From an uncultured Pelagibacteraceae bacterium (lineage in GTDB: Bacteria > Pseudomonadota > Alphaproteobacteria > Pelagibacterales > Pelagibacteraceae): a stretch of DNA of 64,000 nt. Shown here piece after piece: positions 15,771-25,199 of this stretch. How positions within the stretch are numbered: position 1 is the stretch's first letter; every line of letters starts with the position of its first letter. Both the position numbers and the translations under genes were made by a program. The notes below the pieces were generated by a model, which saw only the letters and a list, made by a program, of their open reading frames with translations, made no database searches and was not told the origin of the DNA. The stretch lies in the NCBI GenBank assembly GCA_902610655.1, contig CACLWL010000001.1:62001-126000 (forward strand), given 5' to 3'.

Positions 15771-15796
15771 AAAACTAACTAATGAGGGAGTTTTTT

Positions 15797-16567
15797 ATGA
15801 AAAAACTTAAAACGCTAGCAATAGCTTTATTTGCTCTTGTAGGAGCAACTACAGCGGCTAACGCAGCAACAGCCTTTTTAGCTACGGATGATTTCGTTGG
15901 TATTTCATTCTGGTTAATTTCAATGGGTATGTTGGCAGCTACAGCGTTTTTCTTTATGGAGCAAGCTAATGTTAGCACTCAGTGGAGAAAATCAGTAAAC
16001 GTAGCTGGATTAGTAACTGGTATAGCATTTATTCACTATATGTATATGAGAGCAGTATGGGTTGAAACAGGAGATACTCCAACTGTTTACAGATATATTG
16101 ACTGGTTAATAACTGTACCACTACAGTTAATAGAATTTTATTTAATTCTAGCTGCAGTTAAGAAAGTTCCAACTGGAATATTCTGGAGAATCTTAATCGG
16201 TTCACTAGTAATGTTAGTAGGTGGATATATGGGAGAAGCTGGATTCATCAACCCAATGCTTGGTTTTATAATCGGTATGGCTGGATGGATTTACATCTTA
16301 TATGAAATATTTTCAGGAGAAGCAGGAAAAGTTGTTGCTAAATCTGGAAATAAATCACTTGCAACAGCATTTGGTGCTTTAAGAATGATCGTTACAGTTG
16401 GTTGGGCAATATACCCACTAGGTTATGTATTTGGTTATCTAACAGGTGGTATTGACGCTAACTCACTTAACGTGATTTACAATTTAGCAGACTTTGTTAA
16501 TAAGATCGCTTTTGGTGTTATTATCTGGTCTTGTGCAGTTGCGAACTCTGGAAGAGCAAGAGCATAG
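15797..16567 (+). CDS. Proteorhodopsin, blue-absorbing type
   Basis: Retinal-binding light-driven proton pump of the inner membrane. The start is the ATG at 15797 behind GAGGGAG; an ATG 15 bases upstream would include that ribosome-binding site as coding. The 256-residue protein has a cleavable signal (cut near ANAA, residues 20-24) and seven membrane segments. Key residues by alignment to known proteorhodopsins are His80 (pKa-tuning partner), Asp102 (proton acceptor), Glu113 (proton donor) and Lys236 (retinal Schiff base, in DFVNKIAFG). The spectral tuning position (105 in the reference) is Gln110 in TVPLQLIEF, which marks blue absorption. No retinal or carotenoid genes lie beside it. Confidence 0.97.
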   Translation: MKKLKTLAIALFALVGATTAANAATAFLATDDFVGISFWLISMGMLAATAFFFMEQANVSTQWRKSVNVAGLVTGIAFIHYMYMRAVWVETGDTPTVYRYIDWLITVPLQLIEFYLILAAVKKVPTGIFWRILIGSLVMLVGGYMGEAGFINPMLGFIIGMAGWIYILYEIFSGEAGKVVAKSGNKSLATAFGALRMIVTVGWAIYPLGYVFGYLTGGIDANSLNVIYNLADFVNKIAFGVIIWSCAVANSGRARA

Positions 16568-20538: not shown

Positions 20539-21408
20539 ATGAAAATAAAAATTTTGATACCAATTTACAATGATTGGCAATCTGTTAAGAAACTTTTAGA
20601 AAAAATTAATCATGAAGTAAAGGGTATGGATCACTCATTTTCCGTAACTTTAGTAAATGATGCATCTACAGAACAATTAACAGAAAATTTTTCTAATTTA
20701 TCCAATTTAAATTCTATCGAAGTTATTAATCTAAAAAATAATGTTGGTCACACAAGATGTATCGCAACAGGTTTAAAGCATATAAATGAAAATCAACAAT
20801 TAGATTATATTATTCCAATGGACGGAGATGGTGAAGATAGACCTGAAGAAATAAAGTTGTTTGTAGAAAATTTTAATTATCATCCAAATAAAACAATTGT
20901 TGGAGAAAGAGTAAAAAGATCTGAAAATATTTTATTTAAAATATGTTATTTTTTTCACAAAATTTTAACCTATACTTTCACAGGACAATCAATCAAATTT
21001 GGAAATTATACTTGCTTAACAAAATCAACTATTGAAAAAATGTTGAGTGATAAAGCAACATGGAGTAGTTTTTCGGGATCGTTAGCAAAGAACTGTAATG
21101 ACAAAGCAACAATTTCCTCAGAAAGAGGAAAAAGATATTTTGGTCCTTCAAAAATGAGCTTTTTAAATCTTATAAAACATTCTCTAGCAATAATTGGAGT
21201 ATTTAAATTTAGTGTTTTAGTTAGATCAATACTTTTTGTTTTAGTTTATATGTTTTTAATATACCAAAAAATATCATTTATAATGATACTACCCATAATA
21301 TTTATTGGTATATTTCTAATCTCTACTTTTATAATTTCACAAAGAGGAAGTTTGAAAGAAATGAATAATTCACTATCCAATATTTCAATAATTGATAAGA
21401 TTATATAA
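20539..21408 (+). CDS. Family 2 glycosyltransferase with C-terminal membrane segments
   Basis: 289 residues. It has a GT-A fold with KILIPIYNDWQSVKKLL at the start, VNDAST near residue 40, NVGHTRCIATGL and the sugar-nucleotide motif PMDGDGEDRPEE near 94-105. Two C-terminal hydrophobic helices (about 225-265) suggest a DPM1/GtrB-like enzyme that loads a sugar onto polyprenyl phosphate at the membrane. That would supply the GT39-like enzyme two genes upstream. It overlaps the TauD gene by one base. Confidence 0.85.
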   Translation: MKIKILIPIYNDWQSVKKLLEKINHEVKGMDHSFSVTLVNDASTEQLTENFSNLSNLNSIEVINLKNNVGHTRCIATGLKHINENQQLDYIIPMDGDGEDRPEEIKLFVENFNYHPNKTIVGERVKRSENILFKICYFFHKILTYTFTGQSIKFGNYTCLTKSTIEKMLSDKATWSSFSGSLAKNCNDKATISSERGKRYFGPSKMSFLNLIKHSLAIIGVFKFSVLVRSILFVLVYMFLIYQKISFIMILPIIFIGIFLISTFIISQRGSLKEMNNSLSNISIIDKII

Positions 21409-22235
21409 TGAAAATTAACTTAATTTCTGGTGCATTGGGAGCTGAAATATCTGGGTTAGATTTAAAAGATTCTTCAGAAGAAAATTGGAACGTAATCAAC
21501 CAGCTTCTTTTGGAACATAAAGTTCTTTTTTTTAGAAATCAAAATATTTCAGCAGAGGAGCAAATTAATTTCGCAAAACGGTTTGGACCTTTAGAAAAAC
21601 ATGTATATGTTAAGGGAAGAAATCAATACCCAGAAATAATTAGAATAATTAAAAAACCAGATGAAAAACAGCAGTGGGGGGAAACTTGGCACACAGATGT
21701 AAGTTATAATCCAAAACCTACCAAAGTAATTATTTTAAGATCAATCAAAATTCCTCCTGTCGGTGGAGACACGATGTTTTCTAATATGGAGCTGGCTTAT
21801 GAAACTTTAGATAATGATCTTAAAGAAAAAATTAAAGACAAGAAAGCAGTTCATAGTTCTCTTGGTGCTGCAGCATTTGTCGATGCTTATAAAGGTATGG
21901 AAGGTAATGGTAATTTAGATGAATATTCAAATATTCATCCAATTGTTAGAACTCATCCAGAAACAGGTAAAAAAATCCTATATGTTAATTCTATGTATAC
22001 AAAAAGAATTGAAGGTTTAGATGAAAGTGAAAGTAACAAATTATTAAAAAAGTTATTTGCTCAACAAGAAAGATTAGATCTAACTTGTAGATTTAAATGG
22101 ACTGAAAATGCTGTTGCTATTTGGGATAACAGAAGTACACAGCATCAGGGCTTAACTGATTTCTTCCCTGGCCGAGGATTGGGACACGAAAGAGTTATGG
22201 ATAGAATTGCTATAGAAGGCGATCAGCCAATATAA
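21408..22235 (+). CDS. TauD/TfdA-family Fe(II)/2-oxoglutarate dioxygenase
   Basis: 275 residues. The iron triad is visible as His95 and Asp97 in WHTDVSY and His246 in RSTQHQG; Arg262 in HERVMDR is the likely 2-oxoglutarate anchor. The family hydroxylates taurine, alkylsulfates, carnitine precursors and related compounds, releasing succinate and CO2. The substrate is unassigned; taurine is only one option. It is embedded in a run with glycosyltransferases and an ammonium transporter, so a nitrogen-containing substrate is possible. Confidence 0.85.
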   Translation: MKINLISGALGAEISGLDLKDSSEENWNVINQLLLEHKVLFFRNQNISAEEQINFAKRFGPLEKHVYVKGRNQYPEIIRIIKKPDEKQQWGETWHTDVSYNPKPTKVIILRSIKIPPVGGDTMFSNMELAYETLDNDLKEKIKDKKAVHSSLGAAAFVDAYKGMEGNGNLDEYSNIHPIVRTHPETGKKILYVNSMYTKRIEGLDESESNKLLKKLFAQQERLDLTCRFKWTENAVAIWDNRSTQHQGLTDFFPGRGLGHERVMDRIAIEGDQPI

Positions 22236-22251
22236 ATAATTAAATAAAGAT

Positions 22252-24366
22252 ATGTCCCAAGAAATAATAGACGCACTAAAAAATAATATTGACACCTTGT
22301 GGGTAATTGATTGTGCAATTTTAGTTTTTATTATGCAAGCAGGTTTTATGTGTATGGAAACCGGTTTATCTAGATATAAAAATAGTATCAATGTTGCGTT
22401 AAAAAATGCAGCAGACTTTGGCGTTTCCGTAGTTATTTTTTGGATTTTTGGATTTGGTATTATGTTTGGTACCTCTTATAACGGTTTTTTTGGTACCGAT
22501 TTATTTTTCTTTAAAACAGAAAAAGCGGAATACATGACTTATTTTGTTTTCCAAGCAATGTTTGTTGCAACTGCCGCAACAATTATTTCTGGTGCTGTTG
22601 CAGAAAGAATGAAATTTAATGGATATTTGATTATGACAGTTTTAGCTACTGGAGTAATTTATCCTATTGTTGGCCATTGGGCTTGGTCTTCGAGTTATCT
22701 TACTGGTTCGGTTAAATCTTCAGGTTGGCTGTCAGATATAGGATTTGTAGATTTTGCTGGGAGTACAATTGTACACTCAGTAGGAGGATGGATTGCCTTA
22801 GCAGCAGTTATTATATTGGGTCCAAGAATTGGTAAATATTCAGAGGCAAATAAAGGCAAGTTTACTGGATCTAGTTTTCCTTTAGCAGTTTTGGGAACAC
22901 TTATTTTATGGTTTGGTTGGTTTGGTTTTAATGGAGGAAGCAATGGGGCAATGGATGAGGCAGTACCATTAATTTTAATTAATACATTTTTAGCAGCAGC
23001 ATTTGGTTTATTAACAGGTTTATTTATTTCATATCTTAAATTTAAAAAACCTGATCCTTTTTATATTATTTTAGGTCCATTAGCAGGATTGGTTGCAATT
23101 ACGGCTGGGTGTAATTCAATGTCATCAGTAATTTCAATTTTTGTCGGAATAATAGGGTCAATAATTGCTATCATTGTAAATGAAACTTTGAATAAGTTTG
23201 AAATTGATGATGTTGTTGGTGCAGTTCCAGTTCATTTAGCTGCGGGTATTTGGGGAACTTTAGCGGTAGGTCTATTCTCAGATTTAACAATTTTAGATAC
23301 TGGGTTAGACAGATTTTCACAAATTAAAATTCAATTAATTGGTATTACATCAATCGGTTTATTTACGTTTATTTCATCTTACTCTGTTTTGAGTATAGTA
23401 AATAAATTTTATCCTCTACGGGTAAGTCCTGTACAAGAGGAGTTAGGATTAAACATTGCTGAGCACAATGCAGTTTCAGTTGAGCATGATTTAATTTCGA
23501 TTTTAGACAAACAATCTGAGTCAGGAGATCTTAAAATTAGAGGACCTCAAGATCCATTTACTGCAGGTGGAGTAATTGGTCTTTATTATAACAAGTTAAT
23601 GAGCAAGCTAGAAACAAGTGAAGAAGAGAAAAATAAGTGGCGTGCGAGAATATCCAAAGAAGTTAAGTTAGCAGTGAAGGTTCAAGAAAACTTTTTGCCA
23701 AAAAGAAATTTAGATAATTATCCTGTAAAAGGTATAAATATAGCTGCCAGAGAGGTTTCAGGAGATTTTTTTAGTTTTTATCCTCATAACGATAATGTTT
23801 ATTTCATTATTGCAGATGTAGCTGGCAAAGGAATACATGCCGGAATGGTTATGGCTAAAGCGTCAACTTTATTTGAAATAATGGCTAGAGATAAAGTTGA
23901 TGTAGATGAAATTGCATTTCATATGAACAATGATTTATTTTATACTAAAACAAGTGGAATGTTCGTAACCTCGATTATTGGAAATTATAATATTACTACT
24001 GGTGAAATAGTATGGGTAAACGCTGGTCATCAACCAGCGCTAGTAAGAGATAAAAATGGAAATTTTCAAGAATATGAAAGTAAATCTCCTCCATTAGGTG
24101 TAATTGTACAAAAAGCAAAATCCAGCTATTCTATTAATAGAATTAATTTAAATAGTAACAGACTTTATGCATTTACAGATGGATTATCTGAAAGTTTAGA
24201 CGAAAATAATCAAGAAATAGGCATCGAAGGTTCAAAAAAAGTAATTAATAATAATTTTAGTAATAATATTAATGATGAATTAAATAATATTACAAAAGAA
24301 ATTACCACTTCCTCTAAAATTGAAAAATTAAGTGATGATTTAACTATAGTTGTTATAGGTAAATGA
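22252..24366 (+). CDS. Ammonium transporter fused to SpoIIE/RsbU-type phosphatase
   Basis: 704-residue two-part protein. Residues about 10-390 are an Amt channel with the pore twin histidines His175 (STIVHSVGG) and His328 (VPVHLAAGIWGT) and the conserved DFAGS. Residues about 395-450 form a linker resembling the HAMP-like region of other Amt fusions, then a charged helix (455-485). Residues about 490-704 are a PP2C-like serine phosphatase of the SpoIIE/RsbU group with all metal aspartates: Asp505 (GDFFSF), Asp522 (ADVAGKG), Asp643 (TDGLSES) and Asp696 (SDDLT). Both halves look active. It could sense ammonium and dephosphorylate an anti-sigma antagonist; no such partner is adjacent. It overlaps the next gene by four bases. 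Confidence 0.93.
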   Translation: MSQEIIDALKNNIDTLWVIDCAILVFIMQAGFMCMETGLSRYKNSINVALKNAADFGVSVVIFWIFGFGIMFGTSYNGFFGTDLFFFKTEKAEYMTYFVFQAMFVATAATIISGAVAERMKFNGYLIMTVLATGVIYPIVGHWAWSSSYLTGSVKSSGWLSDIGFVDFAGSTIVHSVGGWIALAAVIILGPRIGKYSEANKGKFTGSSFPLAVLGTLILWFGWFGFNGGSNGAMDEAVPLILINTFLAAAFGLLTGLFISYLKFKKPDPFYIILGPLAGLVAITAGCNSMSSVISIFVGIIGSIIAIIVNETLNKFEIDDVVGAVPVHLAAGIWGTLAVGLFSDLTILDTGLDRFSQIKIQLIGITSIGLFTFISSYSVLSIVNKFYPLRVSPVQEELGLNIAEHNAVSVEHDLISILDKQSESGDLKIRGPQDPFTAGGVIGLYYNKLMSKLETSEEEKNKWRARISKEVKLAVKVQENFLPKRNLDNYPVKGINIAAREVSGDFFSFYPHNDNVYFIIADVAGKGIHAGMVMAKASTLFEIMARDKVDVDEIAFHMNNDLFYTKTSGMFVTSIIGNYNITTGEIVWVNAGHQPALVRDKNGNFQEYESKSPPLGVIVQKAKSSYSINRINLNSNRLYAFTDGLSESLDENNQEIGIEGSKKVINNNFSNNINDELNNITKEITTSSKIEKLSDDLTIVVIGK

Positions 24367-25199
24367 AAAAAATTTTTTACTTTCTATTTTTAATCTTTAT
24401 ATTTTTTTCAAATTTATGTTTTGCAGATCAACACAAAACTAAATTTAAAGATATAAAAGGTTATAAGGAGCAATTTTTATCTTTAGCATATAAAAAAACT
24501 AACAGAATTAAGGAAGTAAAAAAAAGTGATGGCTTCCCCGTATATGAAGGAAAGACAAGTATTCAAGTTACAGTAAATAGAGAAGATGCTGGATGTGGAA
24601 AAGGAAAATCTGCCAAATTGCAAATTGGATGTGATGGCAAAGGAAATAGGAGCAGACAAGAAATTCACCTTGGTGATCTTAGATTAAAAAATAAAGAACA
24701 TATTTATGAATATGCAGTTTACTTTGATGAAGATTATATAAGTTTAGAAAAGGGTGCAGTTGTTGTAATTGGTCAAATGCATACAGACAATAAAGCTAAA
24801 GGTTGTCATAACTGCTGTCATTTTTGGGCTCAAGATACAAAGTATAAAGGTGAAAATTATTACACTTGGGTTAGTAAATCAGCATACTCTTCCGACCCAG
24901 TAATAATTGGCAAGATTGATGATTTAAAAGGTAAATGGACCCATTTGAAATTTCATGTTCTCTGGAAGCTAGACGAGACTGGAAGATTTAAAATATATAA
25001 AAATAATGAAGTTATTGCTGACTTAAAAAACATTAAAACACTAGCTGATACCTGCGCAGGTGGCTATATGAAATTTGGAATATATAGACATAGAACAATT
25101 GGTTATTGGAATTCTGATTGGGAAAGTCTTCAAGATCAAAGAATTTATTTGGATAGTATAGTTCTTAGAAAACCCAAAAAGGAAGAGAAATTTAAATAG
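24363..25199 (+). CDS. Secreted polysaccharide-lyase-like protein
   Basis: 278 residues with a signal peptide (KKIFYFLFLIFIFFSNLCFA, cut near residue 20). It resembles the heparin-lyase-like (Polysacc_lyase, PF14099) beta-sandwich family: RQEIHLGDLRL, YEYAVYFDEDY, VVIGQMHTD and a late DTCAGGYMKFGIYRHR block. It carries a Cys-rich loop (CHNCCHFW near 143-150) plus Cys in EDAGCGKGK and LQIGCDGKG, giving likely disulfides in the periplasm. Substrate unknown. ATGA overlap with the Amt fusion ties it to the same operon. Confidence 0.65.
   Translation: MKKIFYFLFLIFIFFSNLCFADQHKTKFKDIKGYKEQFLSLAYKKTNRIKEVKKSDGFPVYEGKTSIQVTVNREDAGCGKGKSAKLQIGCDGKGNRSRQEIHLGDLRLKNKEHIYEYAVYFDEDYISLEKGAVVVIGQMHTDNKAKGCHNCCHFWAQDTKYKGENYYTWVSKSAYSSDPVIIGKIDDLKGKWTHLKFHVLWKLDETGRFKIYKNNEVIADLKNIKTLADTCAGGYMKFGIYRHRTIGYWNSDWESLQDQRIYLDSIVLRKPKKEEKFK

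Follow-up and report, generated by a model that had tools for sequence, protein, structure and literature searches.

An ammonium transporter domain fused to a predicted SpoIIE-type phosphatase in Pelagibacteraceae, and its probable partner switch

The fusion gene and its domains

The window is a 64 kb stretch of DNA (positions 62001-126000 of contig C1) from the genome of an uncultured member of the Pelagibacteraceae (G000; 82% complete, 1.07 Mb, 44 contigs). At 22252-24366, on the plus strand, it carries an Amt-SpoIIE fusion gene of the A type, a single open frame of 704 aa whose product, P0001, is the reference for residue numbers throughout. A Pfam scan placed an Amt domain at residues 17-407 (PF00909, E = 7.9e-113, far above the curated cut-off; 22300-23472, +) and a SpoIIE/PP2C domain at residues 514-702 (PF07228, E = 1e-32, 114.1 bits against a cut-off of 25; 23791-24357, +). 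A preliminary description, made from the letters alone, had read one 704-residue frame joining Amt to SpoIIE/PP2C and proposed a search with these two families; both are found. The gene is tightly packed between two others on the same strand, a TauD-family dioxygenase (21408-22235, +), which ends 16 bp upstream and is present in 7 of 80 named loci, and a PF14099 polysaccharide lyase-like protein (24363-25199, +), the start of which overlaps the stop of the fusion; both are regarded as neighbours only. A rhodopsin-like gene (15782-16567; a proteorhodopsin by eye) lies in the same syntenic block. The AlphaFold model of P0001 has a mean pLDDT of 66.9, mostly below 50 in the linker, so it served fold matching only and does not settle the fold of the linker. 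A search of a viral library with P0001 gave clear matches to PP2C-fold proteins and was uninformative.

The pore residues of the Amt half are intact: the twin histidines H175 and H328 named in the preliminary description, the Phe gate F104/F226 and the filter residues W145/S230 are all present. It also resembles Ks-Amt5 of Kuenenia stuttgartiensis (PDB 6eu6), an Amt-histidine kinase which, according to PMC5764959, binds two NH4+ at an intramembrane site formed by Q24, E31, N47, D50, T51, T109 and T112, and does not translocate ammonium efficiently. The counterparts in P0001 are Q29, E36, N52, D55, F56, T110 and S113, so that five of the seven are identical, including both acids, and the differences are T51 to F56 and T112 to S113. 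The five shared residues (Q24, E31, N47, D50 and T109 in Ks-Amt5 numbering) are common to all 13 Amt fusions compared (3 SpoIIE, 6 histidine kinase, 1 EAL and 3 MCP), and among the 10 alphaproteobacterial fusions to histidine kinase, EAL or MCP outputs, position 51 is F in seven and position 112 is S in all ten. This pocket signature is found in every one of 97 fusion copies (78 A and 19 B type, see below). The seven stand-alone Amts of SAR11 that were compared have A or H at position 24, L or K at 50 and S at 109, while retaining E31 and N47; six further stand-alone Amts also lack the signature (6/6, not counting L110, a piece of a broken fusion), and E. coli AmtB is without all five residues. 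The pore plug of Ks-Amt5 (F27, Y30, F34) is represented in P0001 by F, M35 and L39, one of three being kept.

Structure comparisons with the predicted model gave the best fold matches of the Amt half to entries titled 'Receptor Sd-Amt1' (Z 43.5–45.3), then to the 'Sensor Amt Protein' 6eu6 (Z 42.2), with the transporter 2b2f next (Z 39.8). Receptor Sd-Amt1 of Shewanella denitrificans (PDB 8qj3, 8qj4, 8qpf) is also the best sequence match, aligned through residue 464, that is, over Amt and most of the linker, and so is the closest solved relative in both sequence and fold. In a tree of 26 Amt domains the SpoIIE-fused proteins form a group (support 93/99), the branching order among the fused Amts is mostly open, support for the stand-alone group is 67/58 and E. 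coli AmtB, on a long branch, falls among the fused Amts. Because of these open forks, the weak stand-alone group, the long branches and the position of AmtB, the tree alone does not prove a single clade of receptor Amts. Also in the window genome is a second, divergent Amt of 466 aa (L028:7328-8728), which has Cys in place of the filter serine and sits on a long branch of the tree. Assimilatory transporters of the AmtB type stand alone and lack the receptor pocket; P0001 is fused and has the pocket signature, and its Amt half looks more likely to be a receptor of the Ks-Amt5 kind. Since the signature is present and Ks-Amt5 is reported to be inefficient in translocation, ammonium is more likely to be read by binding than by flux. 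Of the coupling of ammonium flux directly to partner switching, as first proposed, the link to partner switching stands (see below), but the pocket favours binding over flux.

In the phosphatase half, the aspartates D505 (just before the Pfam boundary), D522, D643, D695 and D696 are invariant in all full-length relatives, 78 of A type and 19 of B type. Four metal ligands had been assigned to positions 505, 522, 643 and 696; the first three hold, while the fourth, by homology to the SDNMT motif of PP2C-alpha, is presumably D695 rather than its equally invariant neighbour. The model of this half matched the RsbU domain of Rv1364c (Z 23.0), SiaA-PP2C (Z 23.0) and SpoIIE (Z 21.3). With an above-threshold PF07228 match and the metal aspartates in place, P0001 is a predicted phosphatase of the SpoIIE/RsbU-type PPM class. 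Matches to the other PP2C family, PF00481, were absent from all 13 genomes tested.

The linker, at residues 405-466 (23464-23649, +), was examined by alignment, profile comparison and dN/dS, and is common to the Amt-histidine kinases. Compared with shuffled sequences, its similarity to the linkers of seven histidine kinase or EAL fusions reached z values of 9–22, against 3–5 for three MCP fusions, and profile comparison gave 98% for the histidine kinase/EAL set and 65% for the MCP set of three. It had been described at the outset as HAMP-like. The Pfam HAMP profile gave no match to P0001 at E ≤ 1, but where the linker aligns with three Amt-MCP relatives, two of these give a HAMP score (29.8 bits in L086, above the cut-off of 25, and 22.7 bits in L075, below it); together with the MCP profile comparison, this faintly suggests a HAMP-like linker.

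Orthologues and related Amt fusions

Named genomes were scanned with the linker and phosphatase part as the query, and the best 80 of 477 relatives were taken, all titled Pelagibacteraceae. The whole fusion lies in one frame at 78 of these 80 loci, the exceptions being a split or edge copy (L110) and an edge copy (L156). The preliminary description had called for a survey of Pelagibacterales, and at E ≤ 1e-150 there were matches in 83 of 397 genomes of the order, 82 of them within the genus of the window and one (G004) in another; three of the 83 are partial (G131, G1225, G1220) and one, in G296, carries two in-frame stops. When the window copy was compared with L089, L091, L092 and L096, dN/dS was 0.05–0.06 overall and 0.02–0.10 for the linker alone, indicating purifying selection on the fusion, with no weaker constraint on the linker than on the domains.

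A second, B type of the fusion is 53–56% identical to P0001, is about 745 aa long and has an extra N-terminal stretch. It is found in the same locus as an A-type copy in 19 of the 80 named loci and without an A copy in G170; since only three candidates per genome were scored in the order survey, B-type counts from that survey are lower bounds. G004 has a third, divergent copy, 51% identical to P0001, which groups with the A type in the Amt tree (95/76), though by identity it is as distant from P0001 as the B type. The receptor-pocket and phosphatase positions that were checked are invariant in all full-length copies (78/78 A, 19/19 B) save S230 of the selectivity filter, which is A in 19/19 B copies. 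The fusion remnant of G296 (L057:6988-8856), with its two stops, lies in a genome with no above-threshold match to STAS, the small RsbW-like kinase or secretin, a possible case of joint loss of fusion, switch and secretin. Each of the 19 B-type fusions shares its locus with the gene for a small protein (cluster c13, e.g. L029:12575-12904); this protein starts with a signal-like stretch, contains a GMMCxKC motif that by eye resembles a metal-binding site, and has no Pfam match.

Outside the family, no Amt-SpoIIE fusion occurred among 33 foreign frames that were domain-scanned (24 of 35 rows from a class survey and 9 of 22 from a phylum survey). Their outputs were HisKA-HATPase (19), GGDEF-EAL (8, one from the class survey), MCP (3), PAS-GGDEF (1), PAS only (1) and Amt only (1). 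The class survey covered 385 genomes, of which 34, our own included, had a match at E ≤ 1e-80; its 24 scanned rows gave 19 histidine kinases, 3 MCP, 1 GGDEF-EAL and 1 Amt only, the last being L088, where the frame ends after the Amt domain. In 10 of its 35 rows the alignment extends beyond residue 500 of P0001, and all ten were scanned (8 histidine kinase, 1 MCP, 1 Amt only). In the phylum survey of 398 genomes, 22 had a match at E ≤ 1e-90 (own included) and no foreign alignment went beyond residue 484; the nine scanned frames, several of them cut by the locus end, were 7 GGDEF-EAL, 1 PAS-GGDEF and 1 PAS only. The unscanned rows number 11 of 35 and 13 of 22 (among the latter, G324 was scanned via the class survey), and each survey scored the top two or three candidates per genome, so that a divergent fusion could escape.

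Among the foreign frames, three from Alphaproteobacteria combine Amt with a methyl-accepting chemotaxis signalling domain (L072:10011-12338, L075:1508-4018 and L086:1902-4361) and have the same five pocket residues; from their domains they are possible ammonium chemoreceptors. The Amt-GGDEF-EAL fusions carry PAS domains (L074:1055-4135; L169-L174, L177), and the pocket signature was checked in L074 alone. Exchange of sensor domains among outputs has been proposed for other sensors (PMC12143880), and the Amt fusions provide a natural case, a single sensor module whose output is variously a histidine kinase, GGDEF-EAL, a chemoreceptor or a phosphatase. No published record of an Amt-SpoIIE fusion was found in the open-licence literature, going by title among the matches listed, nor anything relevant there on partner switching in SAR11 or SpoIIE in Pelagibacter.

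A probable STAS/RsbW switch within a type IV pilus locus

Profile searches of the window gave no match to STAS or a small RsbW-like kinase, in line with the initial remark that no antagonist or kinase lies nearby; that remark does not extend to the genome as a whole. Contig C2 of the window genome carries its one STAS gene (C2:24625-24924, -; TIGR00377, 69.5 bits against a cut-off of 53.45) and its one small RsbW-like kinase gene (C2:24212-24625, -), which overlap by one base. Two further SpoIIE proteins are encoded near the pair, one with a CHASE2 domain (C2:29129-31222) and one with a GAF domain (C2:13995-15299). Around the pair is a type IV pilus cluster with matches to PilM/PilN, secretin, T2SSE ATPase and PilY1, a sub-threshold match to PilO, together with pilin-like and further genes identified by sight or from their neighbours. 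The same genome thus has the elements of a partner-switching module, a STAS protein with the phosphosite motif and a small GHKL kinase. The STAS motif DSSG is present in 51/51, and the kinase N-box EAAQNIVKHAY is exact in 35 of 40 and changed at one residue in the other five.

STAS-domain partners had also been suggested as a subject for a survey, and among 78 chosen genomes the STAS/RsbW pair was found in 37 of 38 with the fusion and in 13 of 40 without it, the sole fusion genome lacking it being G296, with its interrupted fusion and no secretin match. As those 13 keep the switch, it does not depend on the fusion, which is one of its inputs. A SpoIIE domain is present in all 50 genomes with the pair, occurs without the pair in G146, G172 and G296, and has no match in 25 of the 78. 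The pair and secretin go together in 74/78 genomes (both in 48, neither in 26, pair only in 2, secretin only in 2), and in the two pair-only genomes, G134 and G160, the pair lies within 2 kb of a contig end (the contig start in G160). The 40 fusion-less genomes were hand-picked from 259, favouring high completeness, and the genomes are related, so these co-occurrence counts and the locus counts below are not independent, and Fisher p-values computed on the co-occurrence serve as description.

In 41 of the 80 named loci the fusion lies with pilus genes, and 39 of these 41 include the pair; between STAS and the first fusion gene lie 1107–1801 bp in 38 loci, and 6859 bp in the remaining one. Another 23 loci are of the same site type as the window, between a glycosyltransferase and umuC, with the pair absent from the locus, and 16 show neither pilus genes nor this site, several being short contigs. 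Overall, the pair is absent from 41 of the 80 loci, many of them cut by contig ends. In G051 (L039, L050) about 9 kb separate a window-type site from the closest pilus gene, and 20 kb separate it from the pair. An autotransporter beta-domain protein (cluster c7, e.g. L049:7477-9915) adjoins the pilus/switch locus; autotransporter adhesins beside type IV pilus genes have been reported in SAR11 (PMC12636525). From these arrangements, the fusion probably works with the kinase and switch protein of the pilus cluster, and the window gene, an orthologue at a second type of site, probably still serves partners on another contig.

Two sigma-70 region-2 matches (PF04542) were found in all 27 genomes tested, with or without the switch, a count that agrees with PMC13198564, and no dedicated alternative sigma factor was seen in these 27. 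The classical alternative-sigma target of such switches is therefore unavailable. Judged by location and co-occurrence, the switch most likely has its output in the surrounding type IV pilus/adhesin locus. The 2025 phosphoproteome of strain HTCC1062 (PMC13198564) describes 555 proteins with 1014 S/T/Y sites between them, gives no predicted Ser/Thr kinase other than RsbW, and has six annotated phosphatases, none predicted to act on proteins; it gives SAR11_0057 as rsbW, and SAR11_0054 is pilA (PMC2864753). In genome G026 the order is pilin (65846-66331, -), STAS, STAS and RsbW (from 67078, +), B and A fusions lie near this kinase gene, downstream of two pilin genes, after two small genes, and a GAF-SpoIIE and a fourth SpoIIE frame are also present. 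This gene order fits HTCC1062, and because of that fit (the identity is our inference) the cultured strain is a likely test bed. The SpoIIE and fusion genes of G026 are candidates for the missing protein phosphatases of HTCC1062.

Proposed mechanism and alternatives

On sequence grounds the Amt-SpoIIE fusion is real, a gene under purifying selection with intact catalytic and pocket residues and a recurrent neighbourhood and co-occurrence with the switch. We consider it probable that it is an ammonium-receptor phosphatase acting on the STAS/RsbW switch with a pilus-linked output, an explanation in which ammonium binding, phosphatase activity, the choice of STAS as substrate, the direction of the response and the link to the pilus are what we infer. 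NH4+ would bind in the intramembrane pocket of the receptor-type Amt, as in Ks-Amt5, and the change in the pocket would be transmitted via the conserved linker and helix to the PP2C domain. This domain would remove from the serine of the STAS protein the phosphate put there by the RsbW-like kinase, and dephosphorylated STAS would then bind the kinase and so alter what the kinase holds or modifies. The CHASE2-SpoIIE and GAF-SpoIIE proteins would be parallel inputs into the same switch. A structural puzzle would count against this mechanism: related phosphatases are argued to form dimers, with crossing helices as the drive (PMC12143880), but Amt is a trimer and the kinase of Ks-Amt5 is trimeric (PMC5764959), so that a dimeric phosphatase would be fed by an Amt trimer.

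Parts of the system have known counterparts. Ks-Amt5 shares the pocket and a C-terminal signalling output with P0001, but its output is a histidine kinase (PMC5764959), where P0001 has a predicted serine phosphatase and its genome a STAS/RsbW pair, and two of three plug residues differ. The PPM phosphatases of the RsbU/SpoIIE and Rv1364c type, with STAS/RsbW, share the PP2C fold, metal aspartates, the phosphorylatable-serine motif of STAS and the small GHKL kinase; they differ from the system of P0001 in that its input is an Amt receptor and its genome is without a dedicated alternative sigma factor. HmpU-V-W of Nostoc punctiforme, as described in PMC6495340, is an Rsb-like switch on which the development and motility of hormogonia depend, as they also do on type IV pilus genes, and has a non-standard output; it belongs to an unrelated organism, and the passages describing it name no Amt domain. 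In the Rsb network of Chlamydia trachomatis, the primary sigma factor is bound by RsbW (PMC4552016), which might serve as a model where a genome has just two sigma factors, although the abstract names neither an Amt input nor a pilus locus.

Were P0001 a bifunctional transporter-phosphatase, its Amt half would conduct ammonium and the flux would drive the phosphatase, the view taken in the preliminary description. The intact twin histidines, Phe gate, W145 and S230 and the difference at two of three plug residues speak for it, but the receptor pocket is invariant in 97/97 fusion copies and missing from the lineage's own stand-alone Amts, Ks-Amt5, which shares this signature, reportedly translocates ammonium inefficiently (PMC5764959), and the nearest solved structures are titled receptor or sensor; we judge this reading unlikely. 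We give similarly little weight to a general protein phosphatase that reverses many Ser/Thr phosphorylations in SAR11, with STAS as one substrate at most. The many phosphosites of HTCC1062 with no known protein phosphatase (PMC13198564) and the absence of PF00481 from 13/13 genomes would suit such a role, but the pair never occurs without SpoIIE (50/50) and has the fusion as a neighbour in 39 of 80 loci, substrate specificity is reported for SpoIIE and RsbU (PMC11418112), and a SpoIIE match is missing in 25/78 genomes.

It is less probable again that the window copy has left the switch and serves its neighbours TauD and polysaccharide lyase in another process. The tight packing between these genes and the 23 loci of window type point that way, yet this site type also occurs without a TauD or lyase gene (e.g. 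L096-L109), the phosphatase and linker are equally conserved there, and the partners are kept in the same genome. That a frameshift or assembly error joined two genes, the refutation envisaged at the start, is hardly credible: nothing in the window favours it, the nearest cases being the two stops of G296 and the split L110 elsewhere, and we reject it on the intact single frame at 78 of 80 named loci and a dN/dS of about 0.05 across the junction. An ammonium-receptor phosphatase working on the STAS/RsbW switch is thus the reading we prefer.

A broader proposal is more speculative, and we hold it as somewhat less than an even prospect: the missing protein phosphatases of SAR11 may be hidden in ammonium-transporter-like genes, and Amt, CHASE2 and GAF signals may converge on one STAS/RsbW switch that acts on RpoD/RpoH or on the pilus machinery directly. 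SAR11 are very abundant ocean bacteria with very few regulators per cell, and the finding offers them candidate protein phosphatases, a plausible signal in ammonium, and a locus, that of the type IV pilus.
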